A stretch of DNA of 37,328 bases from Nitrospira sp. (GCA_020430245.1 JAGQKG010000008.1:1-37328); one strand, 5' to 3'; shown: positions 3,784 to 34,862, counted from the stretch's first letter. The notes: a model not told the origin generated them from the sequence alone. Program-made: numbers and translations.

Positions 3784-3894
3784 CTTTTTCCTCCGGAACT
3801 TTTGACCTATCATTCATGAGCAACCGGAATTATGGTATTTTATAAGTGGAATAATTCACAAATTGCTGTCCTGTCAGAAAAATTGGAGGAAAAG

Positions 3895-4758
3895 ATGGTA
3901 GGAAGAATGAGGAATCAACACATCGGGTGTATGGGGGTAGGAGCGTGCCTACTGATCATCGTGGCAATTTCCGGTACTGTGAGCGCTTCTGAGCCCCCTC
4001 AAGAAATTATCGGAAAAGACGGTGCGCCAATGGTCTTGATTCCGGAAGGAGTTTTTCCCATGGGCGTACCCAAAGCGGCCCGTGATGGGGGATTGGACGA
4101 GCGCCCGAATCATGACGTGTTTGTGGACACCTTTTATATGGATAAGTATGAGCTCACAAATGGCCGGTATCTTCAATTTGTCACCGAAACCGGTCACCGC
4201 ATTCCGCAACATCCGACTGATCAAAAAAAGGGACTGTGGAAAGGGAACATGATGCCCGAATCGGTCACCGACCTTCCGGTCATCAACGTGGACTGGAATG
4301 ATGCCGAAGCCTACTGCCACTGGGCTGGGAAACGCCTTCCCACCGAAGCCGAATGGGAAAAAGCCGCCAAAGGGCCGAACGACTGGCGCTTTCCCTGGGG
4401 TGACGTCGAACCCACGCTGGAACATTTGAATTTCAATCAATCCTGGCGGGGAGAGGCCACGTTGACCCAGGTGGGTATTTATGAGAAAGGTAAAAGCCCC
4501 TATGGTATTTACGATGTAGCGGGCAATGTCTGGGAATGGGTGGATGACTGGTACGAAGCGGACTATTACGCCAAAAGTCCTGCCCGGAATCCCCCAGGAC
4601 CCGAAACCGGCACATACAAAGTTTTGCGGAGTTCAGGCTGGCAGGGGGAAACACCCCAGGTCCGAATCTTTACGAGGATCAAAAGTCTTCCAACGGACCG
4701 CAATAATTCCACGGGGTTCAGATGCGCCCAGGATCTACCTGCTCCATTAACTCGCTAA
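3895..4758 (+). CDS. Secreted SUMF1/formylglycine-generating-enzyme-like protein
   Basis: Protein of 287 residues. The chosen ATG (3895) follows GGAGGAAAAG; an upstream in-frame ATG at 3832 lacks such a site. Residues 1 to about 33 form a signal peptide (basic start, hydrophobic ACLLIIVAISG, cleavage near VSASEPP). The rest is one FGE-sulfatase (SUMF1) domain: MVLIPEGVFPMGVP, DERPNHDVFVDTFYMDKYELTNGRY, LPVINVDWNDAEAYCHWAGKRLPTEAEWEKAAK, FPWGD, YGIYDVAGNVWEWVDDWY and a terminal STGFRC. The stretch usually reading LRGGSW is LRSSGW here, and the cysteine pair used by true formylglycine-generating enzymes near it is absent. It is therefore more likely a binding or otherwise diverged member than a sulfatase activator. 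A HemD-like gene follows after 27 bases. Confidence 0.85.
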   Translation: MVGRMRNQHIGCMGVGACLLIIVAISGTVSASEPPQEIIGKDGAPMVLIPEGVFPMGVPKAARDGGLDERPNHDVFVDTFYMDKYELTNGRYLQFVTETGHRIPQHPTDQKKGLWKGNMMPESVTDLPVINVDWNDAEAYCHWAGKRLPTEAEWEKAAKGPNDWRFPWGDVEPTLEHLNFNQSWRGEATLTQVGIYEKGKSPYGIYDVAGNVWEWVDDWYEADYYAKSPARNPPGPETGTYKVLRSSGWQGETPQVRIFTRIKSLPTDRNNSTGFRCAQDLPAPLTR

Positions 4759-8517: not shown

Positions 8518-9548
8518 GATCAAATATCGAGAAGGATGGTTAGGTATTTCTAATTGTTTTGATGATCATCACTCGTCAATCGAAAGCTTCCTAATTGAGG
8601 CCAACGGAAGGTCTTTTTGGCTATTCTCCCCGTCATGAATAATATTCAGCGGGCAGCTGTATATATCGGAAAGGCTTCAACTGAGGCTATCTTGGTCCTA
8701 TAGGCTCTCTTGTATGTTTACTTACAACCGAACACCGAAATTGTCCGCTTGTGATTCAGCGAAATACCATACATACGCGATGTACAACCCATTTTGAGTG
8801 CATGTATGGCCTCATCTACAATCCAGAACTTCCTGACATAGGAAATGTTCCCGAGTTCACTCAGCCGGCAAAAAATAAGTGAGAGTACCCATGGCAGCCC
8901 TATGCTTATGTCATGGAGAACAAATTGGTAAATTTAGGGGTGCTTTTGTTAGACTACATTCTTACAAGGGCTCAGTAGGGCTTCACAAGAGCGGATGCAT
9001 CTTTCGTAATCTTGTCCTACACCTTCCAAATTCAATATTCATACGTTTCTCGAACTGAATAGTCATTCTTTGAAATCATCCCGCTGTTTCGAGAAACTTA
9101 CCAAGATCCGACCAATTAGATCGGGCCTTTGATTATTCTCTAGGCTCAGGTTACAGATTGCATCCATGACAACATGCCAAGCCCCGAAAAAATACCCTTC
9201 CACATCCAATCAAAGAAATAACGATGGGATCTGAGTTTTAAGGAATATCTTTGTGTGGCTATGACCATTCCAGGCATTGCGTATCTCCACGATGGGCAAT
9301 CGGATCAGCCTTTTTTAAACTGTCCTTTTAGAATATCCAGCCCGCCAAATACCAAAGACCACACATTCCGTAAAATTGTATTTGCCAGGAGCTCTCCTTC
9401 TGGTTTATCTTGTTGAGTTTTGAGCATTCTCCTTTTATCTTAAGAGAGCTGAGTATCCCTGTTTTACAAGAAGGCCTCGATGAAGTTCACTGAATCGTAA
9501 GTTGTAAATATCTCGAGATCCCCTACACATGAGAGAGGAGCGTTGAGG
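8518..9548. other. 1-kb intergenic stretch without recognisable gene
   Basis: No open frame here has both a ribosome-binding site and protein-like composition. The sequence is AT-richer than its neighbours and broken by stops in all frames. I see no tRNA, no clear terminator after tetR and no long repeat. It probably holds the promoter of the desaturase in its last 100 bases, but no convincing -35/-10 pair was found. Confidence 0.4.
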
Positions 9549-10538
9549 ATGCCAGAAATCCAGCGGATCATGGTGGGCTCATGGAAACTGTTGAAGTCCC
9601 TGTTTGATAGCCAAGAAGCAACAGCACTAGCCTCCCATAAAAATGGTCGTGACATAGACCTGGTGCGCACGATCCCATTTCTGGCCTTACATGTTGCCGT
9701 CCTCGCAGTCTTTTGGGTTGGGTGGAGTCCAGTGGCAATCGCGGCTGCCGTGTCCTTGTATATTGTCCGAATGTTCGCTATTACCGGATTTTATCACCGT
9801 TATTTTTCACACCGAACATTTCGCACCTCACGAGGGATGCAGTTCCTGTTTGCCTGCCTTGGAGCCAGTGCTGCCCAACGAGGTCCTTTATGGTGGGCGG
9901 CTAATCATCGCCACCATCATGCCTATTCTGATAAACCAGCAGATGTTCATTCTCCTGTCATCCGCGGTCTCTGGTGGAGCCATATAGGTTGGTTTTTAAC
10001 CCATGACCAACTCGCGACAAAATTGAATCGTATCAAAGATTTTGCGCGATACCCAGAATTACGGTTTCTGAACCGTTTTGACACAATTGTGCCAATTGGG
10101 TTGGCAGTCATCCTGTTTCTCTTGGGAAACTGGCTGGGGAGCTCCTATCCAAATTTGGGAACGAGTGGATGGCAAATGTTGGTGTGGGGTTTTGTAATTT
10201 CGACTGTTGTCCTGTGGCACGGTACGTTCACCATCAATTCCCTCTCCCATCTTTTCGGTAGCCGCCGCTATGCAACATCAGACCATAGCCGGAACAACTT
10301 CCTTCTTGCCATCATCACCTTAGGTGAAGGATGGCACAATAATCATCATAAATATTGCAGCTCCGCCCGGCAAGGATTTCGATGGTGGGAAATTGATGTC
10401 ACATATTACCTACTGGAGGGACTCCAATTCTTCGGGATCATCTGGGATATTCGTCCAGTACCCGCTTGGATACTGAATCACTCAAATCTTGATCAGGTGG
10501 ACCAGGATACCGATTCAGCCGAGAAGATGGCGATGTAG
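9549..10538 (+). CDS. Membrane fatty-acid desaturase (delta-9 acyl-CoA desaturase type)
   Basis: A 329-residue membrane di-iron enzyme that introduces a cis double bond into fatty acyl chains. All three histidine boxes are present: HRYFSH (83-88), HRHHH (120-124) and HNNHH (263-267), with the additional conserved NSLSH (230-234) and GEGWHNNHHKYCSSARQGFRWWEIDVTYY. Hydrophobic pairs at about 40-80 and 178-225 fit four membrane helices. An in-frame TTG two codons upstream exists, but the ATG at 9549 is 8 bases after GAGGAG and is preferred. It stands alone, with long non-coding DNA before and a separate lipoprotein gene after. A weak stem (AAGGCAT, 10569-10575, with ATGCCTT, 10591-10597) lies downstream. 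Confidence 0.93.
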   Translation: MPEIQRIMVGSWKLLKSLFDSQEATALASHKNGRDIDLVRTIPFLALHVAVLAVFWVGWSPVAIAAAVSLYIVRMFAITGFYHRYFSHRTFRTSRGMQFLFACLGASAAQRGPLWWAANHRHHHAYSDKPADVHSPVIRGLWWSHIGWFLTHDQLATKLNRIKDFARYPELRFLNRFDTIVPIGLAVILFLLGNWLGSSYPNLGTSGWQMLVWGFVISTVVLWHGTFTINSLSHLFGSRRYATSDHSRNNFLLAIITLGEGWHNNHHKYCSSARQGFRWWEIDVTYYLLEGLQFFGIIWDIRPVPAWILNHSNLDQVDQDTDSAEKMAM

Positions 10539-12874: not shown

Positions 12875-13801
12875 GTGGCTTGGTTGTGTTACCCCCTACT
12901 GGCACTCACTGTGCTAAGCGCTTGCCTGGGAAAGCTTGAAACGAAATCCACATTCACCAAACCATGTCGCCCGGATTGGCAACAGCAAGCGGGCCTCTCG
13001 GAAGCAGCTCTTCCTGATTCAACTGTGAGCCATGGGCTCCCGGTTTTGGTATTTAATATTCCTGACCACCTTCTTTCCGATTCGTTCTTCTTGAGCGTGG
13101 CCCACACCGAAGAAGAGGTCGCATGCCTTGGGGATCTAGCCTCCAAGTTCGATCTTGTGCTGGTTCAAGAAACCTTTGTCCCTCCAGCACAACTCGCCCA
13201 ATACACCAAACATGCCTGGATAAATCACCCATTTTTCACCGAAAGCGGTGGTGGGGACTGGTGGCCTCTTCGAGCCATGAGCAACATATGCTTGAGTCCC
13301 GAACTCCTGATGCTCGCCCGCGAACAACCTGAGTCTATCTACTCAACACACCATAAAACCTTTGTAGGCTGGAATACCGACCTGAATTAAGCCGGGGTTT
13401 TCAAGCTTGTTCAATTCCCAACATTTTGGGCACTGAATAGCCATATGGACGCAGGTCGTGATGAAGCCAGTATTGAGGCCAGGACTCTGCAGTTTAGACA
13501 GCTTACTGCAGATATTAGGTGTTTCGTTTCTCCTGAAGCACCATTGCTTGTCAGCATGGATACGAATCTTCGACCAGACCATGAGGAACGCGATGCAGAA
13601 ATTTTGAAAGAGCTTCTTAACGCGAACGCTTTAACCCTTATACATCGAAACGGACCTGATTTAATTGCCGTCAGAGGAATCCGCACAGACCATGCCCAAT
13701 CCCTTCCATTCGATGACACCCTTAGCGATCACAACGCCCTGTCCGTTAATATGTACTCACCATTCAGGTTGGAGTCACAAGGCTTATCAGGCTCCCATTA
13801 A
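12875..13801 (+). pseudogene. Endonuclease/exonuclease/phosphatase-fold lipoprotein, broken by an in-frame stop
   Basis: Two open segments in the same frame are separated by one TAA (13388-13390). The first starts at GTG with a lipoprotein-type signal (LLALTVLSAC) and continues with typical EEP-fold blocks: PVLVFNIPDHLLSD, FDLVLVQETFVP and GWNTDLN. The second holds NSHMDAGRDEAS, LLVSMDTNLRP (a DxN-type motif) and LSDHNALSV, the SDH motif ending the catalytic core. Together they give the metal-dependent phosphodiesterase layout with Glu (QE), Asp-Thr-Asn and Ser-Asp-His present. The residues expected around the mid-domain GLAIFS motif are poorly kept (RAMSNICLSPELLML). The GTG start has no proper spacing to a ribosome-binding site, so the 5' end may be damaged too. 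Best read as a decaying gene. Confidence 0.7.
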
Positions 13802-14091: not shown

Positions 14092-15684
14092 TTATATCTT
14101 TGTATTGATGTAGACTTTTACTCCAGGATTGAAATCCCTTCCGAGGGAATCGAACATTTTTTCATCCAGGCTGATGAAACTCGCATCATTATGAAGATTT
14201 TCATCCGCCAAAGTCCCCCGGTCAACGATGATGATTTTGGCAAGAGACGATTCCACCTCTTCGACAGTTTGAGACCTCTTCGACCTACCATGCCAGGGCA
14301 CGTGCATCAGAAAGGCGGTATAGGAATCAATATTTTCCAACCCGCTTGTCGAAGCAATTGGGCCCCTGATATGAAGGGCATTCAATTTTTCCTTCAGGAT
14401 TTTGGCCGCCTGGTAACTGGGTCTCTCCGGAAAGAAAGGTTGGGTAGCGAGGGGAAAGAGAAAAGATAAGGAAATAAGGGACAATGCCATAATATGAAGA
14501 ATTTTCTCCTGACCGGACCGACGCTTGGCCAGATACCCCACAAAGCCCAAACTCCCGCCAAGAAGAAAAGGGTAGACGGAAAAATAATATCGCCTTTCTC
14601 CTCCATAACCCGGCAAATAGATCACCACAAGACACCCAATGAATATCAATGCCCATCGCCAACGATCAGAGCGAATATTCTGTCTCCACGGAGTATGAAA
14701 CATAAATCCGAATATGACCGAGACTAGGCCCATGCCCAGCCAGTCAAAGTCCTTTAGCATGCGTATAGTTTTCATCACATTGCTATGAACGATCCGCAAT
14801 TGATGACGAAAATTTTCTGTGCTTTCAAGCGGGGACCAGTGTGAGTACTTTTTCGAGATTGGATCCTCCCAGGATGAAAGCCGGCCCTGTTCCGGAATAA
14901 GAAAGTCAGAAAAAGTGGGATGTCCCCGCCGGATACCAGCCGGACCCATGACGGCATGACTAATTCCAGCACTTGTCGAAAACACAGGTTTTCCGTACTT
15001 GAGGGACAGTATGAGAATCCAAGGTCCAGCGATAAGCATTAACCCAACGATGGTGATCACAGCGCTACGTAGAGCATGGGTTAGACTAACCTGCTGACAA
15101 ACCGTCCATAACAAGCCTGCCGCCACAATCAGAATAAATGCAAATGGCAACCCAGGCGCTTTCGCTAAATAGGCAGCTCCGAATAAGAGCCCGGCAGAAA
15201 ATTGGACGGATGGCTTATCGCACCACTCAGGATGCAAAGTTCGGCTTATGGCCAGACAAAGAATGCCACTCATCAGGAGGTCCGGAGTAATCCCTTGAAC
15301 CGCCCAGTGGACACTCATAAAAACAACGATCCCGAGAGCCACAAACATCGCGGAGGATCCAATCCCCAAAACCCGGAAAATCGCCAAACAGCCCATGAGA
15401 TACACAATCGCCGACACCCCCATGGCCATTTGCGCAGCGGATAACGGTTCTTCCACCAAGCCAAGCAACGGGACAATGATCCAGCTCAACATCGGCCCCC
15501 AATAACCGGAAACGGCTAAATCGAACTGCCCCGATGCATAATATTGGGCAATTCGAATATAGGAAATTCCATCAGTGCTGATCCAATCCTGATTGACCCA
15601 ACCAGCCCAAATCAGCAACCCAATCTGAAGAATAAAGAAGCCGAACATGGCTCTGGAGAAATCTGGCCGATTCATTTCATCCAT
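14092..15684 (-). CDS. GT-C-like multi-spanning glycosyltransferase
   Basis: A 530-residue membrane protein with about 10-12 hydrophobic segments. It has the GT-C hallmark after the first helix: an acidic loop STDGISYIRIAQYYASGQFDLAVSGYWGPMLSWI, with Asp preceding the GxSY motif. This is followed by helices such as SAIVYLMGCLAIF, MFVALGIVVFMSVHW and AGLLFGAAYLAKAPGLPFAFILIVAAGL, and a soluble C-terminal tail (about 430-530). Enzymes of this fold take a sugar from a polyprenyl-phosphate carrier and transfer it outside the cytoplasmic membrane. It lies 445 bases downstream of the UbiA and HAD genes on the same strand, which could supply such a donor. The start ATG lacks a strong ribosome-binding site; an ATG three codons later is an alternative. 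Acceptor unknown. Confidence 0.75.
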   Translation of the reverse strand: MDEMNRPDFSRAMFGFFILQIGLLIWAGWVNQDWISTDGISYIRIAQYYASGQFDLAVSGYWGPMLSWIIVPLLGLVEEPLSAAQMAMGVSAIVYLMGCLAIFRVLGIGSSAMFVALGIVVFMSVHWAVQGITPDLLMSGILCLAISRTLHPEWCDKPSVQFSAGLLFGAAYLAKAPGLPFAFILIVAAGLLWTVCQQVSLTHALRSAVITIVGLMLIAGPWILILSLKYGKPVFSTSAGISHAVMGPAGIRRGHPTFSDFLIPEQGRLSSWEDPISKKYSHWSPLESTENFRHQLRIVHSNVMKTIRMLKDFDWLGMGLVSVIFGFMFHTPWRQNIRSDRWRWALIFIGCLVVIYLPGYGGERRYYFSVYPFLLGGSLGFVGYLAKRRSGQEKILHIMALSLISLSFLFPLATQPFFPERPSYQAAKILKEKLNALHIRGPIASTSGLENIDSYTAFLMHVPWHGRSKRSQTVEEVESSLAKIIIVDRGTLADENLHNDASFISLDEKMFDSLGRDFNPGVKVYINTKI

Positions 15685-16129
15685 TTTTTATTTCGCCCTC
15701 ATATCCATTCATTTTTAGACTCCTGATGCCTCAAATGCTGGTAATTCCCTATGTCACAAAAGGCCTACATAATTCGTGGTCGGGAATTTCCTCATATTTG
15801 AACCCCTTCCTTATGTTGATTCTCCACAATTTCAGCAGGCATTGGGGCAGAATCATCCCCCGTGGCAGGAAGGATCCCAGAACTGTGAAGGGATCATCTC
15901 ATGCATGTCAGTATAGTTTCTCCGGAAGGCATTGCAGTCAAACGAATTCAATTTTCCTCAACGCATGAAATGATCACGCGTAGCACAAAGTTTTATTTAA
16001 TTCTTCGGAATCCCTGCATAAGTCTGAAGGAATCTTTGGTGGTTGCCTTGTCCATCACCTAACGAAAATACACACACAAACCTAAGCCTCGGGTATCCTG
16101 GAATCATTTGGCTAGACAGATAACCGCAC
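15685..16129. other. Intergenic stretch upstream of the GT-C gene
   Basis: 445 bases between two co-directional genes with no plausible ORF; the only longer frame (15726-15968, plus) lacks a ribosome-binding site. It should contain the promoter or leader of the GT-C gene, but I could not identify a confident -10/-35 pair or terminator. Confidence 0.35.
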
Positions 16130-17119
16130 TTACTTTCCACCAAGTGTCCAAAGAGGGGGAATGATGGCTGGATTAACATTAAACAACTCATACAAAAACG
16201 GAATCTCAGAAAACATAAGCAGGAGAAAGAGCAATGTGCTCAATCCAACATACACAACAAACCCCCCTTCCTTGTACAACTTTTCTGGATTTTGAACAGG
16301 GCTATCCTTAAGCATGCCGACCTTCAGATAGTAGGTCAAAAATCCCGCCCCAATAGGGACAAAAAGTATCAACTCCATATGATATCGGACAAGAAATATT
16401 CCAGATACAAAGGAACAAGCCATCGCATAAAAGAACATACTCAGCAATAAACGATTTTCGGTGTAATACCCGAACGACTTTCGATACCCCCGTGCACGTA
16501 TCGGATCATCAATACGCCGATACTCGGCAAATCGCTTGGTTGCCATGAAAAATGCGCCAACCATCCAATAGGCCAACATAAGTGAAAGCGGAGGGATGCT
16601 ATTGGTTACAAGCGCAAACCACCCGAGCAACAACCGAATCGGATTATTCAGTGATTCAGTCAGCACATCTAAATAAGGAAGATCTTTGGTCCGTATCGGG
16701 GGAATATTGTAAATGAGGCCGCTCACCAAAAATAACAGGGCTGTCGTCCCAAAATATGCATTTAGGGAAAAAGCAAGAACGATCCCTGAAGCCCCCAATA
16801 AGAACCATTCCATCCAGGCCCAGCTGGCCTTGACCTTCCCGGAAGGAACGGGACGATCCTTTTTCACTGGATGGAGTCGGTCATAAGGCGCATCGAGTAC
16901 TTCGTTTACTACATAATTGCTAGAGGCAATTAAACAGGTAGCTGCGATAGCCACGAGCAATGGGAAAAAACTTTTCCAGGCGAAGAGTTCCGGCTCATAA
17001 AACAGGGCAAGCACGATGCCAAGAATCATAAAGACGTTTTTAAACCAATGGTCGATTCGGGCAATCTGGACATAAGGCCAGAGTATCCGAATAACATTAG
17101 ATGGCTGAGTGAATAACAT
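16130..17119 (-). CDS. UbiA-superfamily prenyltransferase (decaprenyl-phosphate phosphoribosyltransferase-like)
   Basis: About 329 residues with 8-9 membrane helices. The signature starts after the first helix: ARIDHWFKNVFMILG, then the first Asp-rich motif NYVVNEVLDAPYDRLHPVKKDRPVPSG (N-x-x-x-D with the K/R-P-x-S-G tail) and the second region YNIPPIRTKDLPYLDVLTESLNNPIRLLLGW. The HWFKN start and overall look are closer to the phosphoribosyl transfer branch that makes polyprenyl-phospho-ribose than to ubiquinone enzymes. The frame is open upstream to 17341, deep inside the HAD gene. I chose the ATG at 17119 because it gives the usual family length and only a 23-base overlap with the HAD stop; an ATG at 17176 is possible. 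The shoulder-to-shoulder layout implies translational coupling. Confidence 0.8.
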   Translation of the reverse strand: MLFTQPSNVIRILWPYVQIARIDHWFKNVFMILGIVLALFYEPELFAWKSFFPLLVAIAATCLIASSNYVVNEVLDAPYDRLHPVKKDRPVPSGKVKASWAWMEWFLLGASGIVLAFSLNAYFGTTALLFLVSGLIYNIPPIRTKDLPYLDVLTESLNNPIRLLLGWFALVTNSIPPLSLMLAYWMVGAFFMATKRFAEYRRIDDPIRARGYRKSFGYYTENRLLLSMFFYAMACSFVSGIFLVRYHMELILFVPIGAGFLTYYLKVGMLKDSPVQNPEKLYKEGGFVVYVGLSTLLFLLLMFSEIPFLYELFNVNPAIIPPLWTLGGK

Positions 17120-17825
17120 CGCAAAGGCCTCTAAAATTAGTAATAGAACGATATTCTGTTTTTGCATTCTGGTCATACCCGCAAGATGTTCTGCGGGAAA
17201 ATATGACGCACGGCATTCCGGCAGCTTTGGCACCACACGCATCGACGTCGTGTCGATCACCGACATACAACACCTGCTCTGGATCAAGATTCCAGAGGCG
17301 ACAGGCATAGAGAAACCCTTTGGGGTTGGGCTTAAACGCATTAATCTCCGGATCCGTTCCGCATAATTCCACCGTTAATGGAACATGAATCCCTAGCCCT
17401 CGCAGTTTTTCTCTTACGGGGTAATCAGAAAAAACTCCCGTATAAAGACCCCTTTCGGCTGCCAATTGGAAAAATTCTCTCATACCACGACGTCGACAGA
17501 TCCTGAGATATTTCAAAGGGCGACGGTACATCCATTCCCTTACAACCATCTCCACCTCTCTAGAGGTCACATAGACTTGTTCGGCAACAAGAGAATATTG
17601 AAAGCTCACCAAAGGGACACGCGGATCTTTCATGGTCCGCAGCGCTTCACGTCCCTCTCGGAAACATTTCAAAATTCTCCAGACACCCAGAGCCTCCCGA
17701 ATAGAACCTAACGCAAACGGAGCAGCAGACAACTCAACGGCCATTAGGCTACGAAGATATTGTTGGTGATATAACGTCCCATCAACATCGAGCAAAACGG
17801 CTCGAATCTGGTGAACTCCTTTCAC
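17097..17825 (-). CDS. HAD-superfamily hydrolase
   Basis: A 242-residue phosphatase-type protein. Motif I is LLDVDGTLYH (Asp nucleophile and acid/base), motif II GVFSDYP, motif III the Lys of FKPNPKGF, motif IV VLYVGDRHDVDACGAKAAGM. A helical cap inserted after motif I (about residues 20-100) fits subclass C1. It probably removes a phosphate from a small metabolite, perhaps a sugar phosphate or the phosphoribosyl product of the neighbouring UbiA enzyme. That link is inferred from the 23-base overlap with the UbiA gene. The start is GTG with GAGGAG about 11 bases upstream. No other gene lies upstream for 1.2 kb, so this heads its own operon. Confidence 0.85.
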   Translation of the reverse strand: MKGVHQIRAVLLDVDGTLYHQQYLRSLMAVELSAAPFALGSIREALGVWRILKCFREGREALRTMKDPRVPLVSFQYSLVAEQVYVTSREVEMVVREWMYRRPLKYLRICRRRGMREFFQLAAERGLYTGVFSDYPVREKLRGLGIHVPLTVELCGTDPEINAFKPNPKGFLYACRLWNLDPEQVLYVGDRHDVDACGAKAAGMPCVIFSRRTSCGYDQNAKTEYRSITNFRGLCDVIHSAI

Positions 17826-19090: not shown

Positions 19091-20596
19091 ATGATTGCGG
19101 CCATCTCATTGGAGGCCCCATCGCTGTCCCTTATCCAGCAGTTGATCGCTGACAACCGAATGCCGCATCTCGCAGCTCTTCAACGAGAAGGCGAGGTCGT
19201 CAGCCTCGACCCACCATTTCTTGATGGAGCGGTTTACGCCACCCTCTATACCGGTCAACATCTGTCGGAGCACGGGATTTACTCCTTATTTACCTGGTCT
19301 GCTCCCGAGCAAAAGCTCCGATTGTCTCACGAGCTACTGTCAGATGACACTCTGTTCCGACGCCTGGACCGAGCAGGCAAACGAGTCCTTGCCATTGATC
19401 CACCCGAACATCCCATCCAGGAACTGGCCAACGGTGTCGTGGTGAGTGGGTGTCAGTTTCGATCACGCGTCCACTTGGCTAAGTGGTCGCGTCCTCCGAG
19501 CTTGGGCAAGGAACTCTTTAACCTTCTTGGCAAGACACCTAGAGGTGAGGAAACCTTTGGTCAGCCATCGCAGCACCATCTCCTCCACCTGCGGGAAATC
19601 CTCCTGCAAGCCCCCAGCCGCCTAGCTCGTGGAGTTGAACGATTGATGGAAGAAAGGGCCCCCGATGTACTCTGGTTGCACATGGCTGCGATCCACCTTG
19701 CGGGGCACCAGCTTTGGGATACCGCGTCCGTTGACATCATCGGACAGTCCTCAACCGGAACGAGTCTGCTGGAAAAATCCCTGATTGACGTATATCTTGA
19801 AGCCGACGCAGCACTTGGTCAAATAAGAAAAACTCTGCCTGACAATGCAGATCTCCTCGTATTCTGGGCCAAGGGAATGGGCCCGGAGACATGTCGGTCC
19901 GATCTTCTTCCCGAGATGCTGGAACGGATTCTGAACCCCCGCACCATCGTCCACACGTCATCTGGAAATGACATCCTGACGAAGCTGCGTTCGATCGTAC
20001 CCACCTCGCTTCGATCTAAGGTCGCAGATGCACTACCCGATTCACTTTCACTCCAACTTACAGCTCGACTGGGAACAATAGGGAAAGACTGGAAAGCGAT
20101 ACGGGCCTTTTCTTTACCCTCAGACGGCCCTGGATTGGTTCGGCTTAACATCCACGGGCGGGAGCGGAATGGGATCGTCACCGAATCCGAAGCAAAAGTG
20201 CTCTGCGACGAGATCATCGAGGGCCTCCAAACCTTTTGCGACATTGATGGTAAAAAGTGCATTGTGGGCATTGAACGACCCGGAGACCATTTGCCTCCCG
20301 GCCCCAAACTGGACGGGCTTCCCGACCTGGTTATCCGATGGAGTGACGAACCATCTACGAATCTACGCGGCGTGACCTCCCCGGTATACGGTACAGTGTT
20401 GCGCAAAGGTGCGGGGTCAGGGCGGTCGGGAAACCACATCCCCGGCGCCCGCGCTATTATCGTCCCGCGATCGGGAACGTATCGCACGATCAAGGGCCGA
20501 AATCCGCATCTGGTTGATCTGAATGCAACGGTCTGTGCAGCAGCTGGGGTGCCCCACAATGACCTTCCCGGCCAGTCACTTCTCGCATATCACTGA
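19091..20596 (+). CDS. AlkP-fold (type I phosphodiesterase/nucleotide pyrophosphatase-like) protein with altered active site
   Basis: A 501-residue cytoplasmic protein of alkaline-phosphatase-like fold. The frame is recognisable: MPHLAALQREGEV, then ATLYTGQHLSEHGIYSLF (50-67), GVVVSGCQF, a middle strand DVLWLHMAAIHLAGHQLWD, LLVFWAKGMGP (255-265) and a late SGNHIPGARAIIVPRSG. Compared with active relatives several metal or catalytic positions differ. The usual N-terminal Asp is Glu (ISLEAPS), the nucleophile-bearing loop reads PPFLDGAVYATL without a Ser/Thr at the expected place, the Asp-x3-His pair is HLAGH, and the SDHG motif is WAKG. The late His is kept. It could be a non-catalytic or shifted-chemistry member. 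AGGGAG lies 7 bases before ATG. A glycosyltransferase follows 295 bases downstream on the same strand. Confidence 0.7.
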   Translation: MIAAISLEAPSLSLIQQLIADNRMPHLAALQREGEVVSLDPPFLDGAVYATLYTGQHLSEHGIYSLFTWSAPEQKLRLSHELLSDDTLFRRLDRAGKRVLAIDPPEHPIQELANGVVVSGCQFRSRVHLAKWSRPPSLGKELFNLLGKTPRGEETFGQPSQHHLLHLREILLQAPSRLARGVERLMEERAPDVLWLHMAAIHLAGHQLWDTASVDIIGQSSTGTSLLEKSLIDVYLEADAALGQIRKTLPDNADLLVFWAKGMGPETCRSDLLPEMLERILNPRTIVHTSSGNDILTKLRSIVPTSLRSKVADALPDSLSLQLTARLGTIGKDWKAIRAFSLPSDGPGLVRLNIHGRERNGIVTESEAKVLCDEIIEGLQTFCDIDGKKCIVGIERPGDHLPPGPKLDGLPDLVIRWSDEPSTNLRGVTSPVYGTVLRKGAGSGRSGNHIPGARAIIVPRSGTYRTIKGRNPHLVDLNATVCAAAGVPHNDLPGQSLLAYH

Positions 20597-20891
20597 AACT
20601 TGCAGTGATGGAAATCCAACCGAATTACCCAATTTTAAGTAACCGAAAGCCTAATAACGTTTCCTAGATAAGTGTCCGATGAATGCTCGCCTATGAACGA
20701 AATCTTATGTATTTGGCTGAATTTTCACTTAAATTATGCTAATTTTTTAAGGATTGAGACCAACCCTCCCGCAAACTTCGCCAAGAGTGAAGCGCCCCCC
20801 AACAAGCTAGAGGGTCATCTTTAAAACAGGTGGTCTGAGCAAATTACCGCGTTTTTTCTCAACAAGTTGAGGGCGATCCTTCACTGTTCTC

Positions 20892-22064
20892 ATGAACAAA
20901 ATAAAGGTATTGTATGCCTATCTTGGGTTTTACCGCGATGCCGGAGGAGAACACTCTCCGTTGGGCCTTGCCGAAGAACTTGATCGCGAGCGGTTCAGTT
21001 TCGAATTGGTGACGTTGATGCCGACCACCTCCACAATCGGCGCAGCGGTTCAGGCAACAGGTTGCCCCATCCACGAGCTCGGACTGGGCATTCCGCGTTG
21101 TTCAGAGCCGGTCCGCATAATCAAAGTTATCAAAGCCTTTTATCAGACGTTCCGCAGAATTCAACCGGACATTGTTCAAACGCAATCAGGCTTTTGCAAC
21201 GTGTGGGCCCGATTGGCAGCCAAATTGGCGGGCGTGCCCATCATCATCATGACGGTTAATTTTGATGAACCAAAACCGCGATGGTTTCTGCGGCCGCTTA
21301 TGGGTGCCGTGCATCACTGGTTAGCCACGAGCACCAAAGCCTATGTCTGTATCGCTGAACATTTGATGAAGGAACAGTTACAACCCTACGAATGGGATCG
21401 TGCCGAAATCATTGACCAATTTTTCGATCTTAAACGCTTTTTGGTGGGCCGCACCGATTTACCGGAAATCCGAGCCCTAACCAATCCCGCTCATCCAGTA
21501 CTCGGCATTGTCGGACGGCTGGAATACGAAAAAGGGCATAGGGTGGCAATCGCGGCCATGCGGAAAATCGTGGATGCAATACCGGGCGCTCGCCTCCAGA
21601 TCGTCGGGGTCGGCAGCTTGGAACAAGAACTCCGAGACCAAGTGGTGGCCCTGCAACTCTCGGAACACGTCAAATTTGCCGGTCACCAGACTCAGATTTG
21701 TGAGATCATGTCCCATATGGACCTTTTGGTGATCCCTTCATACAACGAAGCGTTCGGTTTGGTGGTATTGGAGTCGATTGCAGCCGGGGTACCGTTATTA
21801 GGGAGCCGCAGTGGTGCCTTCCCCGGGATTCTTGACAACGGGAAATACGGGACCTTGGTCGAACCATCAGACCCTGACGCGTTGGCCGAGGCTGCCATTG
21901 ATATCATCCGTAACCCGGCCCCAGCAGTGGACAAGGTGAAGATGGCTCGAATTACCGTGCTCAAGCGGTATACCAAAGAGGAAAGCGCCCGGCAACACGC
22001 TCGTCTTTATGTGCATTTAGTTGAAAATCTTGAGGAAAAAATTAAAGAAACCTCCAGAAAATAG
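20892..22064 (+). CDS. GT4-type glycosyltransferase (copy 1 of a tandem duplicate)
   Basis: A 390-residue GT-B enzyme of glycosyltransferase family 4. The N-terminal domain begins KIKVLYAYLGFYRDAGGEHSPLGLAEEL with the glycine loop and a TQSGFCNVWARLAAKL helix. The C-terminal domain has HPVLGIVGRLEYEKGHRVAIAAMRKI, LQIVGVGSLEQELRD, and the nucleotide-sugar motif NEAFGLVVLESIAAGVPLLGSRSGAFPGIL with the E-x7-E pair. It transfers a sugar from a nucleotide donor to a growing polyprenyl-linked glycan on the cytoplasmic face. It closely resembles the gene at 23,769: 7 differences in the first 60 residues. There is no good ribosome-binding site before the ATG, which starts the same way as copy 2. Donor and linkage cannot be read from sequence. 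Confidence 0.88.
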   Translation: MNKIKVLYAYLGFYRDAGGEHSPLGLAEELDRERFSFELVTLMPTTSTIGAAVQATGCPIHELGLGIPRCSEPVRIIKVIKAFYQTFRRIQPDIVQTQSGFCNVWARLAAKLAGVPIIIMTVNFDEPKPRWFLRPLMGAVHHWLATSTKAYVCIAEHLMKEQLQPYEWDRAEIIDQFFDLKRFLVGRTDLPEIRALTNPAHPVLGIVGRLEYEKGHRVAIAAMRKIVDAIPGARLQIVGVGSLEQELRDQVVALQLSEHVKFAGHQTQICEIMSHMDLLVIPSYNEAFGLVVLESIAAGVPLLGSRSGAFPGILDNGKYGTLVEPSDPDALAEAAIDIIRNPAPAVDKVKMARITVLKRYTKEESARQHARLYVHLVENLEEKIKETSRK

Positions 22065-22111
22065 TAATTTCCTGGTTAAACTGTTCGGCCCTCTTACAGA
22101 CCAACGGTAAA

Positions 22112-22384
22112 ATGATGGTATCCAGCAACATGCCCCACAATAAGGTGTTGCCCAGTTACAATGTATTGGGCGTGTTGGCCTTTAGCTATTTTCCGGTCAT
22201 TATTTCGAAGAGTAATGTGGAAGAGCACACAGACGCGAATGGAAGAGAGAACTATTAGGATCAAGCCAAAGAGGTTTTACGAAAGTACAACGATATCCCC
22301 GCCATATCCTTAAATCTATTTCCCAAAGAGGGTGAATTTCGGTTTACTTACGATTTTCTGAAACACCCATTGAGTAATTTATGA
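22112..22384 (+). pseudogene. Gene remnant of unknown family (one in-frame stop)
   Basis: Forty-eight and 41 codons in one frame, separated by a TAG at 22256. They read like protein: MMVSSNMPHNKVLPSYNVLG, a hydrophobic VLAFSYFPVIIS, then DQAKEVLRKYNDIPAISLNL and FPKEGEFRFTYDFLKHPL. No family is recognised. It lies between the duplicated glycosyltransferases, downstream of copy 1, and is probably the worn remains of a gene once present there. Confidence 0.4.
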
Positions 22385-22468
22385 AAATGGCGCACCCACT
22401 ATTCCACTCTTTTAGTATCGCGCCCTAATTTAAACCGGAGGCGGGAACCTCAACATACCCTGGCAGAG

Positions 22469-23326
22469 TTAGGGGCGTGTAAGAATCTCTCCCCGTTTAG
22501 CTTTTAAGGCATTGGTTCGAATGGCATGATCAAATATATGGCAAAAATACATTTGCTCTACCCACTCGGCATTGCGAAATATTCGCCTTTTTTCGAGAAA
22601 ATTGAACTTGGTAATTTTCCTGCATTCATGTCCATTATTAAATTCCTCAATGGCCAGGAGTTCACCGCAATATCGATTGTGTAGTTCTCGTTTAACATCA
22701 TCAAAATACATTACCACCATCGGAAGGTACAAATCAGAAGGCCCATTAAATATAGTCAAAGCGTCCACTGTACTACTATAGTAATCCAGATCCACAGAGA
22801 TGAAACCAATCGGAGCTCGGACATCGCTCAAAAACCCTTTTATTGTATCCTCCAGGTTTCCGAAATTGATGCGCGCATTTTCAGGAAGCTTTCTTAACAG
22901 CAAATCCTTATCCTGGAGAGGGAAATCGCCCTGACTATAGTACTCCGGGTGATCACGGAAGTCTTTTGGGGGGGGCAATCCCAGCCCAGTATCGAATCCG
23001 ACGATATCGAACTTCACCCCTGTTATATCAGTGATTCTCCTGCCTACTTCGCACAGGTTAAGCAGCCCCGACCCATTAGCGACCCCAAATTCAATTACCG
23101 TCAGACAATCAACATTAATTTCTCTTGCAAAGTCTGCCGCTCGGAGCAGCCCAAATGCGTGATATCGCCGTTCTATCAAATCGAAATCGATTTTGGCTCT
23201 GAGGCTTCCGAAGAGAGCCACCAACCCTGAAAGGAGGTTCAGGTGGATTGGTTCCGTAAGTCGATCTACAAAAATGTTCCGGAGAGTGTTGGGTTCTCGA
23301 AGATTTCGCAGCAAATACCTGACCAT
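22469..23326 (-). CDS. Class I SAM-dependent methyltransferase (TylF-like)
   Basis: A 285-residue protein. The SAM-binding core is visible: VIEFGVANGSGLLNL (motif I, Glu-Phe-Gly), KFDIVGFDTGLGLPPPKD, and the acidic strand PIGFISVDLDYYSSTVDAL, which in TylF-type O-methyltransferases supplies metal-binding Asp residues. MVVMYFDDV follows at the next strand. It likely methylates a sugar hydroxyl, either on a nucleotide sugar or on the glycan. The start is preceded by AAGGA about 9 bases upstream. It is on the strand opposite to its neighbours and sits exactly between the two duplicated glycosyltransferases, so it must have its own promoter. Fold confident, substrate unknown. Confidence 0.8.
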   Translation of the reverse strand: MVRYLLRNLREPNTLRNIFVDRLTEPIHLNLLSGLVALFGSLRAKIDFDLIERRYHAFGLLRAADFAREINVDCLTVIEFGVANGSGLLNLCEVGRRITDITGVKFDIVGFDTGLGLPPPKDFRDHPEYYSQGDFPLQDKDLLLRKLPENARINFGNLEDTIKGFLSDVRAPIGFISVDLDYYSSTVDALTIFNGPSDLYLPMVVMYFDDVKRELHNRYCGELLAIEEFNNGHECRKITKFNFLEKRRIFRNAEWVEQMYFCHIFDHAIRTNALKAKRGEILTRP

Positions 23327-23768
23327 AAGCTCTGATCCTTCATTTACTCACTGTTCAGCAGTTCATGACGTGTATGCTTTCCATGATTGCCAAAGGGTCC
23401 CATGGACAAAGAAGACTGAAGATCCTCCCTTTGAAAACCAGGATTTTCTGCTCCCCAAAAGAGAGTTTATTTTTTCGAATTTCGAGTACTTTACTAAAAT
23501 TTTTCCATAAAGTCTTTCGTGTATGTCTCCTGAGGTCATCTATAGAGTCACCGGCAAAACACTTATCGATGAGGCCCGCAACCCAGACACGATTATTTTG
23601 GATTTTTGTTGCCCGGCTCAGAGACTGGACCTGCCACTTCGCACCGTTGATCACCCTTTTCCCCTTTCGGCCAAAAACTAGATAGTACATATTCACGTGG
23701 ATTTTCACTCATACCCAGCTATTTTATTTTAGGGATTGAGACAAACCAGCCGAGAAGTTTCGGCTAGA
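23327..23768. other. Stretch between the methyltransferase and GT4 copy 2
   Basis: Contains a 117-codon minus-strand frame (23355-23708, GTG start) rich in Lys/Arg with no ribosome-binding site and no recognisable domain. It could be a diverged or decayed gene upstream of the methyltransferase. The last 50 bases repeat the pre-gene sequence of copy 1 (GGATTGAGAC followed by AACC at 20,751 and 23,733), marking the duplication boundary. Confidence 0.35.
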
Positions 23769-24914
23769 ATGGAAAAAATAAAGGTATTGTTTGTCTATCT
23801 TGGGTTTTACCGGGATGCTGGAGCGGAACAGACTCCACTGGGCCTTGCCGAGGAACTTGATCGGGAGCGATTCAGTTTTGAGATAGTGACGTTGATGCCG
23901 ACTACCTCCACAATCGGCGCTGCAGTTCAGGCGACAGGTTGCCCCATCCATGAGCTCGGACTGGGCATTCCCCGTCTCACAGAACCGGTCCGCATAATCA
24001 AGGTTATCAAAGCCTTTTATCAGACGTTCCGCAGCATTCAACCGGACATTGTTCAGACGCAATCAGGGTTTTGCAACGTGTGGGCGCGATTGGCGGCCAA
24101 ATTGGCGCATGTTCCCGTGGTCATCGCAACTTTAAATTTTGGTGGGGAGCCAAAACCACCATGGTATATGTGGCCGGTTATGCGTGCCATGCATCACTGG
24201 TTAGGAACGAGCACCGACGCCTACGTCTGTGTTGCTCAGCATTTGATGAAGGAACAGTTACAACCCTACGAATGGGATCGTGCCGAAATCATCGATGGCT
24301 TTTTCGACCTCCATCGTTTTCTTGCGGGACGCCCCAATTTGCCGGAAATCCAAGCCCTAACCAATCCCGCTCATCCGGTTCTCGGCATTGTCGCAAGGCT
24401 CGAATACGATAAAGGCCATAGGGTGGCGATCGCGGCCATGCGGAAAATCGTCGATGCGATACCAGGCGCTCAACTCAAAATCGTCGGTGCGGGCAGCTTG
24501 GAACAAGAACTCCGAGACCAAGTGGTGGCCTTGCAACTCTCGGAACACGTCGAGTTTGCCGGTCACCAGACTCAGATTTGCGAAATCATGTCCACTATGG
24601 ACCTGCTGTTGATCCCTTCATACAACGAAGCATTCGCTAGGGTAGCGTTGGAGTCAATTGCGGCCGGGGTACCCCTATTGGGAAGCCGCAGCGGTGCATT
24701 TCCCCGAATCCTTGAAAACGGGGAATATGGTGCGTTGATCGCCCCAGCCGATCCTGACGCGTTGGCGGCGGCAGCAATGGAAATAATCGCTAACCCGGCC
24801 CCGGCATTGGTTAGATTGAAAAAAGCTCGAACTACCGTGCTCAAGCGATATACCAAAGAGGAAAGTGCCCGCCGATACGCTCGTCTTTATTTGCGTTTAA
24901 TTGGAAATTCTTAG
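23769..24914 (+). CDS. GT4-type glycosyltransferase (copy 2 of a tandem duplicate)
   Basis: A 381-residue paralogue of the gene at 20,892, starting MEKIKVLFVYLGFYRDAGAE. The same GT-B layout is seen: LNFGGEPKPPWYMWPVMRA in the N-domain, HPVLGIVARLEYDKGHRVAIAAM and LKIVGAGSLEQELRD, with the E-x7-E motif now NEAFARVALESIAAGVPLLGSRSGAFPRIL. Changes cluster in the 125-145 region and in the loop after the first Glu, which contacts the donor, so sugar or acceptor choice may differ between copies. I aligned the start to copy 1. An in-frame TTG at 23736 would add 11 residues but is not conserved because copy 1 has a stop there. No strong ribosome-binding site is present. Confidence 0.86.
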   Translation: MEKIKVLFVYLGFYRDAGAEQTPLGLAEELDRERFSFEIVTLMPTTSTIGAAVQATGCPIHELGLGIPRLTEPVRIIKVIKAFYQTFRSIQPDIVQTQSGFCNVWARLAAKLAHVPVVIATLNFGGEPKPPWYMWPVMRAMHHWLGTSTDAYVCVAQHLMKEQLQPYEWDRAEIIDGFFDLHRFLAGRPNLPEIQALTNPAHPVLGIVARLEYDKGHRVAIAAMRKIVDAIPGAQLKIVGAGSLEQELRDQVVALQLSEHVEFAGHQTQICEIMSTMDLLLIPSYNEAFARVALESIAAGVPLLGSRSGAFPRILENGEYGALIAPADPDALAAAAMEIIANPAPALVRLKKARTTVLKRYTKEESARRYARLYLRLIGNS

Positions 24915-25034
24915 GCAAAAATTGCGAAAAAAATTCAGTTACGTAATAATTACCTGATCGAATGTAGGGATTTACACAGGTACAGCATTCCAATTGCAAT
25001 CTCTCTCGTAAACAAAGCAACTGGAGGTACTTCC

Positions 25035-26003
25035 ATGCTTGAAAAGAAGCGCTCTGGAATTAGCCACAATTCCGAGCCGATGGTGAGTGTGCTGATTGTC
25101 GCCGACCATGATACAGATCGCCACGCCGAGCTAGCGGATCTCCGCAGCTGTTTGCAAGCGCTCGCCACACAGGATGTGGACGAACCCGTTGAGTTTTTGC
25201 TCGTCGAAACAGAAGAGGGCGCTCGAAAGCTTCCTGCGGATTTGCTGGCCGAGTTACCTGGCTTAAAGGTGATCGGAGTGCCTAACGATGCGACCTATGA
25301 GCAAAAGAACGCTGGGGCTCAGGCTGCTCAGGGGGAAATTATAGCCCTTTTGGATGCAGACTGCATTCCGGTTCCAGGCTGGCTGAAGTCACTGATCACC
25401 ACATTTCGGGTACACCCAGAATATGTTGCAGTGAGCGGTCGCACCATGTATGAGGGCAAAACTTCCACTGAGCGATGCCTATCGGTCCTATCCCGCGGTT
25501 TTCTCGATCCAGGAAAAGAAGGCCCAACCCGGTTCATTTCGAATAACAACTCCGGTTTTCTCAGGAAGGTTTACGAACGGTTCCCGCTCCCGGAGAAGGA
25601 AGGCCCTTACGCGGCGCAATTACAATCTGCAGCTATCAGGCGGGACGGCGGCCATTTTCTCTTTCAGCCAGCCATGACCGTGATCCACGACTTCGAAGGC
25701 TGGTCAATGGAGCGGGATATTCGTTGCCATATCGGCTGGGCCACTATCCGTATCCGTCAGGTCGATCCCGGGTTGCGATTTAGCTGGCTCCTGCGGCTCG
25801 GACAGGCTTCAATTCCTTTATTTTACATAGGCAGAGTTATTGAGAGCTTGGGGACGTGTTTTCGAGTCGGCCGTCAATACGGTTTACGGCTGACGGACTA
25901 TCCAGTCGCACTGTTACTCACGTTTTGGATACATTTTCTCGAAATCAAAGGCATGCTGTTAGCATTCCGGCACCAGCGAGTAGACCAAACGAAATATCGC
26001 TGA
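25035..26003 (+). CDS. GT2 glycosyltransferase
   Basis: A 322-residue GT-A family 2 enzyme. The N-terminus has VSVLIVADHD, and then EIIALLDADCIPVPGWL (107-109 is the DxD-type metal motif). NNNSGFLRKVYERFPLPEKEGPYA and a basic tail follow. Two or three hydrophobic stretches near the C-terminus (FSWLLRLGQASIPLFYIG, YPVALLLTFWIHFLEI) may tether it to the membrane. The start has GGAGGT 7-8 bases upstream. It lies 120 bases after GT4 copy 2, and its stop is 5 bases before the next gene, so the two downstream genes are likely co-translated. It adds one sugar to the surface glycan; donor unknown. Confidence 0.85.
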   Translation: MLEKKRSGISHNSEPMVSVLIVADHDTDRHAELADLRSCLQALATQDVDEPVEFLLVETEEGARKLPADLLAELPGLKVIGVPNDATYEQKNAGAQAAQGEIIALLDADCIPVPGWLKSLITTFRVHPEYVAVSGRTMYEGKTSTERCLSVLSRGFLDPGKEGPTRFISNNNSGFLRKVYERFPLPEKEGPYAAQLQSAAIRRDGGHFLFQPAMTVIHDFEGWSMERDIRCHIGWATIRIRQVDPGLRFSWLLRLGQASIPLFYIGRVIESLGTCFRVGRQYGLRLTDYPVALLLTFWIHFLEIKGMLLAFRHQRVDQTKYR

Positions 26004-26008
26004 CCACT

Positions 26009-27121
26009 ATGGCCAAGCTTTTCATTGCTTCGCTGGTTGACCCGGCTTCGCACCCGGGTGGTGCAGGGACTTACACTCGCGGACTCCTTTCCGCGCTGGG
26101 GAATAGCCACGAGGTCAGTTTGGTCGCTCCTCTTCACCCGCCCCCAGGCCCATGGTATCGGTCGCGCCAAATAATGTCGTTGGCCCGGTCGTACATTTCT
26201 GAACTTCCAGCGTTGACATTGTTTACCCGTCAGCCCGAGTTTAGGTTGAGAATTCGCAAAATCGCGCGATCCCAGCTTTTCGATGCAGCCTTGATCAACG
26301 GCGGGGACATGTTATGGGCTACCAAGGAGTTACCGTCAGAAATCCCCACCATACTCATCGCGCATAATCTTGAACACCAGGTACTGACTCAAAAACTGGC
26401 CAACTACCCCTTCCTTTCACATGTCCTCAAACGAGAAATTATCAAGCAACGTCATTACGAAATCGAGGGGTTCCGCCGCACCAGAGGGGTTATATTTCTT
26501 TCGGCGACGGAAATGGCTTGGGGTTGTAACCAAGTCCCAGGACTGCGAGCGCTTCATGTTCCGCCGATGTTTACCAATCCTCCTATAGTTCGTCAGCCGC
26601 AGCCCAACGGCCATCTACGGCTTGGATTCCTTGCCGATTTCGCTTGGTGGCCAAATCGCCAAAGTTGGAAATGGCTCATGGATAAGATTCTTCCCAAAGT
26701 GCACCGCCCGATCACGGTTCATGTTTTTGGGCGGCAGAGTGACCAGATCCCCACTCGTGGCAGAGTGATCCCCCATGGCTTTGTCCAAAATCTTCGGGAG
26801 GTATGGGAACAGGTTGATATCATGATTTGTCCCATTCACGAAGGTGCCGGTGTGAACATCAAGCTTGCGGAGAGTCTATACAATCGAATGCCAGTTCTCG
26901 CGACCACACTGGCAGTACGCGGGCTCGAATGCCCATCCGGACCTGGTCTGAGGATCATCGATAGTGCTGATGAGTGGGTTGCGTTCTTAGGTTCCTCTCA
27001 GGCTGATCTGCTCGCGGCCGAAATGCCATCGGAGGAATTAAGCCGACAATTTTCTCCCGACCGCCATAGAGAAAAGCTGGAAAATTTCCTCTCGGAGGTA
27101 ACCCGAGGTAACCCGAGGTGA
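26009..27121 (+). CDS. GT4-type glycosyltransferase
   Basis: A 370-residue GT-B enzyme starting MAKLFIASLVDPASHPGGAGTYTRGLLSAL, which holds the glycine-rich N-domain loop. Later signatures are PTILIAHNLEHQVL, GHLRLGFLADFAWWPNRQSWKWL, VIPHGFV, and the family motif HEGAGVNIKLAESLYNRMPVLATTLAVRGLE with the Glu pair. The frame is open 51 codons upstream into the GT2 gene. The ATG at 26009, 5 bases after the preceding stop, fits the fold start; coupling replaces a ribosome-binding site, which is absent. The 3' end contains a 10-base direct repeat (GAGGTAACCC twice, 27095-27114) just before the stop. Last gene of the plus-strand run. Confidence 0.86.
   Translation: MAKLFIASLVDPASHPGGAGTYTRGLLSALGNSHEVSLVAPLHPPPGPWYRSRQIMSLARSYISELPALTLFTRQPEFRLRIRKIARSQLFDAALINGGDMLWATKELPSEIPTILIAHNLEHQVLTQKLANYPFLSHVLKREIIKQRHYEIEGFRRTRGVIFLSATEMAWGCNQVPGLRALHVPPMFTNPPIVRQPQPNGHLRLGFLADFAWWPNRQSWKWLMDKILPKVHRPITVHVFGRQSDQIPTRGRVIPHGFVQNLREVWEQVDIMICPIHEGAGVNIKLAESLYNRMPVLATTLAVRGLECPSGPGLRIIDSADEWVAFLGSSQADLLAAEMPSEELSRQFSPDRHREKLENFLSEVTRGNPR
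27095..27114 (+). repeat. 10-bp tandem repeat at the end of a glycosyltransferase gene
   Basis: GAGGTAACCC occurs twice in tandem with a third partial copy (GAGGTG) before the stop codon. Small local duplication affecting only the last residues. Confidence 0.7.
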
Positions 27122-27436
27122 AGAATTTATAAAATTGGTACAGGACACACCACTCTCAGGCTATTGTGAACTTTTCGTATGTGCACGCAGACTCAGTGGA
27201 TTACCACAAGTAACCAAGATACGCTGACAGCGTCTTCTCACTTAAGATCACACTCTTACCGTTGAGAGTAAGCTTGCCGATCTCTTCGCCCCCTGCTGAG
27301 CCCATGCCACCTGAAACCAACAACACATCTGAAAGGTTGAAGGGGAAAAATGATGGGTGCCCTGCCCCTGAACTCATTTACTCTTCCCCTGGAAGGGCCT
27401 TGGGTCACCATACCTCGAATACCTTTTGCACCCAAC
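27122..27436. other. Convergent intergenic region
   Basis: 315 bases between the plus-strand glycosyltransferase and the minus-strand flippase. An imperfect hairpin around 27219-27236 (ACGCT-GAC-AGCGT with flanking partial pairing) and CTTAC/GTAAG at about 27255-27272 are the only candidates for bidirectional termination; neither has a good T-run. No gene is seen. Confidence 0.35.
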
Positions 27437-29907: not shown

Positions 29908-29921
29908 TGATGCTGCCTTCT

Positions 29922-30857: not shown

Positions 30858-30859
30858 AC

Positions 30860-32113: not shown

Positions 32114-32611
32114 GGTCGCTTTTTACCTCCTGAACGCATGCCACATGCCCTGTGCTTCTAGTGCATGCACCACGAGAGAACAGGCCGAGACAACTGGGAT
32201 CTCGTAGTCACAAATACCATAATTTCCTGCCCATCCAAGGCAATCCTTCAAACTTATAATTGTCTTTCCGACCACATGCATAGGAATGAAGAACACCCCC
32301 AAGGAAGGTTATCCATGCAAAAAGGTGTTGCTCGGTCCTGTTAAGGATACGATGACTGTGCCATACCCGCAGTTGCGTCGGATATCGACGTGCATCAACC
32401 ATCCTTTAAGGTCATGCATACCTCGCATTCGTTGATCAAAGAGCATTTGCCCTTCAGTACGGTGAATGGCCTCCGACTGCATTCTCCCCCGAAAATGCCC
32501 GATTACGGCTGGCAATGGGTGAGATAGATAGACCGCTCGTCCCCAAGCAGCATAGTTTTTGGAGATGAAACGGGTCACCCCCTGACCGGGTTCGACGTGG
32601 GAAGGCAGAAA
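32114..32611. other. Gap between IS3 relic and GT4 gene
   Basis: About 500 bases. One minus-strand frame (32309-32578) shows protein-like stretches (HPLPAVIGHFRGRMQSEAI, WLMHVDIRRNCGYGTVIVSL) but belongs to no family I can name and lacks a ribosome-binding site. It may be a gene fragment cut by the IS insertion. Confidence 0.35.
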
Positions 32612-33366: not shown

Positions 33367-33543
33367 TCATGGGGCAAGGAGTCCCCCGCTGACAGCGGGA
33401 AGTGCCTTCACCCACGGGCTCACGCCCCGTGGTCCTCGGCGCTGGCTTTGATAGATCATGGCATGGTAGATCTTGAAGGGCTCCGATTCGCTCTCTCCCA
33501 TATATGTTGGTTTTTTATTTGATCCCTGTATCGAGCATTAGAT
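33367..33543. repeat. Hairpin-rich junction, possibly from an IS200/IS605 end
   Basis: Three closely spaced hairpins flank the IS3 relic: CCCC/GGGG around 33363-33374, CCCGCT-GAC-AGCGGG at 33385-33399 and CCACGGG/CCCGTGG at about 33412-33432. Read on the minus strand they resemble the structured 3' ends of TnpB-type IS200/IS605 elements, but no tnpB or tnpA is present, so the assignment is tentative. Confidence 0.3.
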
Positions 33544-34743: not shown

Positions 34744-34862
34744 CCCATCCCCGCCCTTTTTTTGATTCAACTGGCCTCAACCACATTCGCAGGGTTTAGT
34801 TATCGTGGTTTCTACGAAACCATGAAATGTCAGGTTTCAGGACGCCACTCCCATGCCGGCTC

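Follow-up and report, generated by a model that had tools for sequence, protein, structure and literature searches.

We analysed a 37,328-nucleotide stretch of Nitrospira sp. DNA (GCA_020430245.1 JAGQKG010000008.1:1-37328), here called the window. It corresponds to contig C501 in an assembly totalling 4.05 Mb, which is 88% complete and whose named relatives belong to the Nitrospirales. The window carries genes for a HAD phosphatase, a UbiA-fold enzyme and a membrane protein of predicted GT-C fold, which an original prediction, made from the sequence alone, had joined into a module for a lipid-linked sugar donor. The three open reading frames (ORFs) were confirmed, all on the minus strand, at the following positions:

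17097..17825, minus strand: HAD-superfamily phosphatase, 242 amino acids, GTG start (PF00702 and PF13419 matches, motifs, gene pairing)
16130..17119, minus strand: predicted UbiA-fold polyprenyl-phosphate phosphoribosyltransferase, 329 amino acids from ATG 17119 (NF008977, structure 8j8j, residues of the phosphoribosyl pyrophosphate (PRPP) site, structural model)
15685..16129, minus strand: gap between the UbiA and GT-C genes, 445 bases, poorly conserved in an alignment of 7 relatives
14092..15684, minus strand: predicted GT-C-fold membrane glycosyltransferase, 530 amino acids (AlphaFold model and Foldseek)

Called mechanically, the UbiA frame starts at 17341 (403 amino acids), with an alternative ATG at 17119 (329 amino acids). 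We favour the shorter form because the frame of a relative (G019) has no earlier start codon. With this start the HAD and UbiA genes overlap by 23 bases, as had been predicted, and the overlap in G019 is also 23 bases. No conserved ORF occupies the 445-base gap in the alignment of 7 relatives. Across the window an Rfam search found no RNA family, and promoter and terminator scans gave results near chance.

Based on profile comparisons the UbiA protein is nearest to the mycobacterial decaprenyl-phosphoryl-5-phosphoribose synthase (DPPRS) Rv3806c, rather than to enzymes of quinone or heme O synthesis. It matches PF01040 at 95.5 bits (cut-off 34.2), and among the NCBIfam models the DPPRS family NF008977 (97 bits) ranks ahead of the heme O synthase CyoE (41 bits) and the proteobacterial quinone enzyme (26 bits). 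This is further supported by comparison with known structures. The window protein alone finds the Rv3806c structure (PDB 8j8j) at E=2e-9, and a profile of 41 UbiA relatives finds it at 1.7e-23, with the next other UbiA structure at 1.2e-11. The proposed likeness to decaprenyl-phosphate phosphoribosyltransferase is thus supported, and in the hidden Markov model search DPPRS ranks first, though under its curated cut-off. The AlphaFold model of the protein (predicted local distance difference test (pLDDT) 93) has 8j8j as its top fold match, with other UbiA structures close behind and an Archaeoglobus UbiA nearly equal in fold score. As fold alone cannot tell DPPRS from other UbiA enzymes, we did not use this search as proof of identity.

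The PRPP-bound structure of Rv3806c defines a site comprising R22, K28, Y70, N73, D77, K87, R90, Y138 and K143 (PMC10994848). The window counterparts, numbered by the alignment of the window UbiA to chain 8j8j, are in the same order R21, K27, Y69, N72, D76, K86, R89, Y137 and K145, the last being less certain because a three-residue insertion adjoins it. These nine, out of 12 PRPP/Mg contacts, are all invariant in 41 UbiA relatives from many phyla; the counterpart of K208 is a lysine in the window protein and variable among relatives.

The HAD protein matches PF00702 at 62.6 bits (cut-off 26.4) and also PF13419, and its motifs D13xD15GT, S133, K165 and G189-D190...D195 are invariant among 17 aligned proteins. 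Its pairing with UbiA was followed around the best 80 UbiA relatives from a profile scan of genome contigs, picked by UbiA similarity and not by their neighbours. Pairs were counted from profile searches of all ORFs, and loci cut by a contig end were scored as being without a HAD. Outside the genus, a HAD gene adjoins window-type UbiA in 35 of 76 loci. Four types of phosphatase were distinguished: type A, that of the window, lies directly upstream of UbiA in 14 loci and 898 bases off in one more; type B, YqeG-like, is directly upstream of, overlapping or fused to UbiA in 7; type C (HAD-IB) adjoins it in 11; and type D, the phosphatase domain of PRK08238, is found 480-618 bases downstream in 2. 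All catalytic motifs are kept in the window-type HADs of relatives. HAD genes are common, but for two genes to lie directly side by side in one orientation, as often as this and over many phyla, appears difficult to ascribe to chance. On the UbiA tree the HAD types are clustered and several changes are needed (no bootstrap, long outgroup branches). The original prediction had named two findings that would speak against it, a UbiA whose closest matches are quinone or heme O enzymes, or a pair that related genomes do not conserve; neither was obtained, and the pairing is conserved.

For the third protein, neither Pfam nor NCBIfam gave a family match. Its AlphaFold model is moderate (pLDDT 69.9, predicted template modelling score 0.75) and agrees with the predicted GT-C fold. 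Foldseek returns ArnT (5ezm) at E=5.5e-5, then PglB and oligosaccharyltransferase, with EmbA/B and AftD weaker. Asp38, which follows the first helix, is nearly invariant.

We propose that the module is a split polyprenyl-phospho-ribofuranose synthase, formed by UbiA and a HAD 5'-phosphatase, that feeds a periplasmic GT-C enzyme, and give this reading a probability of roughly two in three. The gene anatomy, the intact catalytic motifs, the conservation of the PRPP site, the gene pairing and the absence of DprE1 from the genus (see below) are direct observations; what we infer is which substrates are used, in which order the steps run, that a flippase takes part and what the acceptor is. UbiA, acting on the cytoplasmic side of the inner membrane, would use PRPP to load 5-phosphoribose onto a polyprenyl phosphate, which is probably undecaprenyl phosphate. 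The HAD enzyme would remove the 5'-phosphate from the polyprenyl-phospho-ribose-5-phosphate to give polyprenyl-phospho-beta-D-ribofuranose, which some flippase would turn outward. At the outer face the GT-C enzyme would then add the ribofuranose to a polysaccharide, which is probably made by the glycan locus at 19-37 kb of the window, the likely source of the acceptor. The predicted conversion of PRPP to a polyprenyl-phospho-pentose is kept as the best reading of a DPPRS-like UbiA with a conserved HAD partner.

Several observations weigh against the split-synthase reading. The UbiA protein falls below the curated DPPRS cut-offs of NF008976-8 (97 vs 234 bits for NF008977, 62.4 vs 207 and 55.8 vs 474 bits for the other two), and on NF006088, the model for the fused HAD-UbiA protein PRK08238, it reaches 84.1 bits against a cut-off of 351, the window genes being separate. 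In a quick tree with long branches and no bootstrap, its branch lies beside, not inside, the clade of DPPRS and fused proteins. Two PRPP contacts are changed (Q135 to Gly, Y157 to Asn). The motif reads NExxDxxxD, with E73 invariant in 41 relatives, where DPPRS and ORF15 of Citrobacter youngae have NDxxDxxxD, and the Asp of ORF15 equivalent to E73 matters (PMC11127046). About half of the UbiA loci are without a HAD neighbour, and where remote homologues of the GT-C protein occur in the phylum (at 25-31% identity), neither UbiA nor HAD of the window type is nearby. Finally, no flippase gene is adjacent to the module. The window has a Wzx-like gene at 27437-28912 and no SMR or GtrA gene; genes of these two kinds are present on other contigs of the genome.

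Of the proposed links, the GT-C step is plausible and the least secure. UbiA and HAD might make lipid-linked ribose as proposed, with the GT-C enzyme using another donor as a mere neighbour in a general glycan locus, which we consider unlikely but worth weighing. This would suit the 445 poorly conserved bases that intervene, because of which the GT-C gene is perhaps on another transcript, as well as the remote homologues just described and the many other glycosyltransferase genes of the locus at 19-37 kb, among them several GT4 and GT2 genes. Against it, the seven genus genomes that have one of UbiA, HAD and GT-C have all three. The GT-C gene adjoins UbiA in each of them, and the HAD gene adjoins in six; in G004 the genes are split over contigs, with HAD at the end of another one. 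In many distant loci, moreover, a gene of the GT-C family PMT_2 directly follows UbiA. PMT_2 is matched by 27 of 28 membrane-rich genes near window-type UbiA, most of them directly downstream, a share that is biased and gives no general rate because the 28 genes were chosen for transmembrane content. In G007 (L054:12752-15378) a UbiA gene with 79% identity is followed, with an overlap of about 21 bases, by a different, weakly PMT_2-like gene (19 bits); this UbiA reaches the contig end, and a HAD would fall beyond it. For the GT-C protein as user of the lipid donor, the joint occurrence in the genus thus speaks in favour of the prediction, and the remote homologues away from UbiA and the 445-base gap speak against it.

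For the sugar of the proposed synthase, gene content leads us to expect ribose rather than arabinose, because no DprE1 was found in the genus. The original prediction had drawn an analogy with the mycobacterial arabinan donor route and suggested looking for DprE1 and DprE2. The analogy is not supported at its last step: no DprE1 was found in the window's genome or in 20 other genus genomes. In addition, the HAD replaces the unrelated phosphatase Rv3807c. In the window's 88% complete genome a search for the ALO domain found no protein, and a DprE1 protein query found only a 25% identical fragment (E=0.004). Over the 21 genus genomes the DprE1 family model gave weak partial matches of at most 65 bits (a 501-residue protein in G011). 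Since the DprE1-like protein of G032, from the same family, has a Pfam match to FAD_binding_4 only and none to ALO, the ALO search is weak alone, and it is the searches by protein and by family model that bear the weight of this negative. The genomes in which DprE1 was not found include the single-contig G011 and G019, which have the same module; DprE2 was not searched for.

An arabinose donor would require the same route with unlinked DprE1 and DprE2, which would turn the ribose on the lipid into arabinofuranose by epimerisation, as happens in mycobacteria. The incomplete assembly and the limit on DprE2 leave some room for this, and DprE1-like genes do occur in the same family (G024, G025, G032, G034 and G036), with a DprE2-like gene in G032. 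The genus searches make it improbable, however, the G032 protein reaching 369 bits on the model that stays at or below 65 in the genus. Furthermore, the DprE1 genes of the family accompany fused HAD-UbiA genes and not the window-type pair: in all 5 family genomes with a strong DprE1-like gene, its coordinates place it no more than about 0.6 kb from the fusion. Two of these fusions score 504 (G032) and 605 bits on NF006088 (cut-off 351). The DprE1-like neighbour in G032 is below the DprE1 cut-off of 500 bits, and its matches to DprE1 structures reach E=1e-80. For DprE2, the score of a reductase in this genome is 170 bits (cut-off 250), with another SDR model scoring higher. Other genera of the family may possess an arabinose-donor route of the mycobacterial type.

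G032 has both systems, its window-type UbiA and HAD being 2.8 kb apart. In L057:7314-12443 of this genome the fused HAD-UbiA gene stands with DprE1-like, DprE2-like and GT87 genes. In NPIRA01 and NPIRA04 (Nitrospirales), a stand-alone HAD comes after window-type UbiA. This HAD matches NF006088 in the phosphatase domain only and is 41-45% identical to the phosphatase domains of the fusions in G024 and G034, down to 28% for others. One phosphatase type therefore serves both UbiA branches. A GalE-like epimerase was dropped as a marker of a xylose-type system: it stands between UbiA and PMT_2 in L091 only, and elsewhere the members of its cluster resemble ordinary nucleotide-sugar enzymes.

An ordinary UbiA prenyltransferase (for quinone, heme or other prenylation) beside a housekeeping HAD would be in keeping with a common fold and with the near-equal score of the Archaeoglobus structure, but is very improbable in view of the wide margin of DPPRS in sequence profiles, the conserved phosphate contacts K28 and Y70, the HAD pairing across phyla and a separate UbiA on C255 that scores 205 bits in Pfam against 99 for the window UbiA.

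The split ribofuranose donor synthase proposed here has a proven parallel. In Citrobacter youngae O1/O2, ORF15 (a HAD-polyprenyl-phospho-phosphoribose synthase (PPPRS)), ORF14 (flippase) and ORF12 (GT136) form a three-component pentofuranose system (PMC11127046, 2024). Mutants, in vitro assays and nuclear magnetic resonance demonstrate that the HAD-UbiA protein makes polyprenyl-phospho-ribofuranose and that the GT-C enzyme uses it, the flippase being predicted only; candidate three-component systems occur in further species (PMC11127046). Because the PPPRS, phosphatase and GT-C steps are proven there, the original remark on how little is described of the route outside Actinobacteria is dated. 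The window shares with Citrobacter the HAD phosphatase, the predicted UbiA phosphoribosyltransferase, a predicted GT-C protein, the polysaccharide locus and, as to the ribose form, the lack of a DprE epimerase. It differs in that HAD and UbiA are separate genes, UbiA has NE instead of ND and no flippase is adjacent.

With the mycobacterial route the window has in common a UbiA-fold phosphoribosyltransferase with most PRPP-site residues of Rv3806c and GT-C-fold transferases (Emb/Aft), whereas in place of Rv3807c, DprE1 and DprE2 it has an unrelated HAD phosphatase and no DprE1 in the genus, and its UbiA forms a separate branch. The PRK08238/NF006088 proteins combine the same predicted activities, and their type of HAD also stands alone with window-type UbiA (NPIRA01/04); those proteins are fused, above the cut-off and accompanied by DprE1, while the window pair is split, at 84 bits and without DprE1. 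A PPPRS for pilin arabinosylation in Pseudomonas aeruginosa, as cited in PMC11127046, would likewise be a Gram-negative polyprenyl-phospho-pentose route. As far as that citation describes it, it involves arabinose and a different phosphatase. Three-component pentofuranose systems were thus known already; what appears new is a distinct UbiA branch with the NE motif, its split and exchangeable phosphatases and its wide spread over phyla. Among open-access papers we found no description of this branch.

The UbiA branch is found in Planctomycetota, Desulfobulbaceae, Myxococcota, Acidobacteriota, Nitrospirota and others. We regard it as an even call whether it represents a new and widespread class of polyprenyl-phospho-ribose synthases that has repeatedly acquired 5'-phosphatases of different HAD subfamilies and different GT-C enzymes, with ribofuranose surface glycans being common. 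To our knowledge, no ribofuranose-decorated surface glycans have been described in those phyla. If the claim is true, a pathway proven in enterobacterial O antigen would reach a large uncharacterised branch of enzymes, and lipid-linked ribose and ribofuranose glycans would be predicted in nitrifying, planctomycete and sulfur-cycling bacteria. Phosphatase exchange around one conserved synthase would provide a simple search marker for such systems, and the 5'-phosphate of the intermediate is a direct prediction.

Asparagine-synthase-like and acetyltransferase-like genes recur near the UbiA branch (L073, L078, L080, L084, L091, L094, L098, L101 and others, mostly Planctomycetota), which suggests a conserved surface-glycan locus. 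The glycan locus of the window (19091-37328) encodes a phosphodiesterase-like protein, GT4 and GT2 proteins, a Wzx-like flippase and a GDSL-like protein. Its GT4 genes at 20892-22064 and 23736-24914 have the same family matches and like starts in G011. On the plus strand, a gene at 12875-13801 is broken by an in-frame TAA (13388-13390), and its G011 counterpart is an intact 320-residue ORF (L053:8065-9027); the break is either a real loss or an assembly error. Beyond the GT-C gene lie an FGE-sulfatase domain protein (3832-4758), a cytochrome P460 (6550-7161) and a fatty-acid desaturase (9543-10538).

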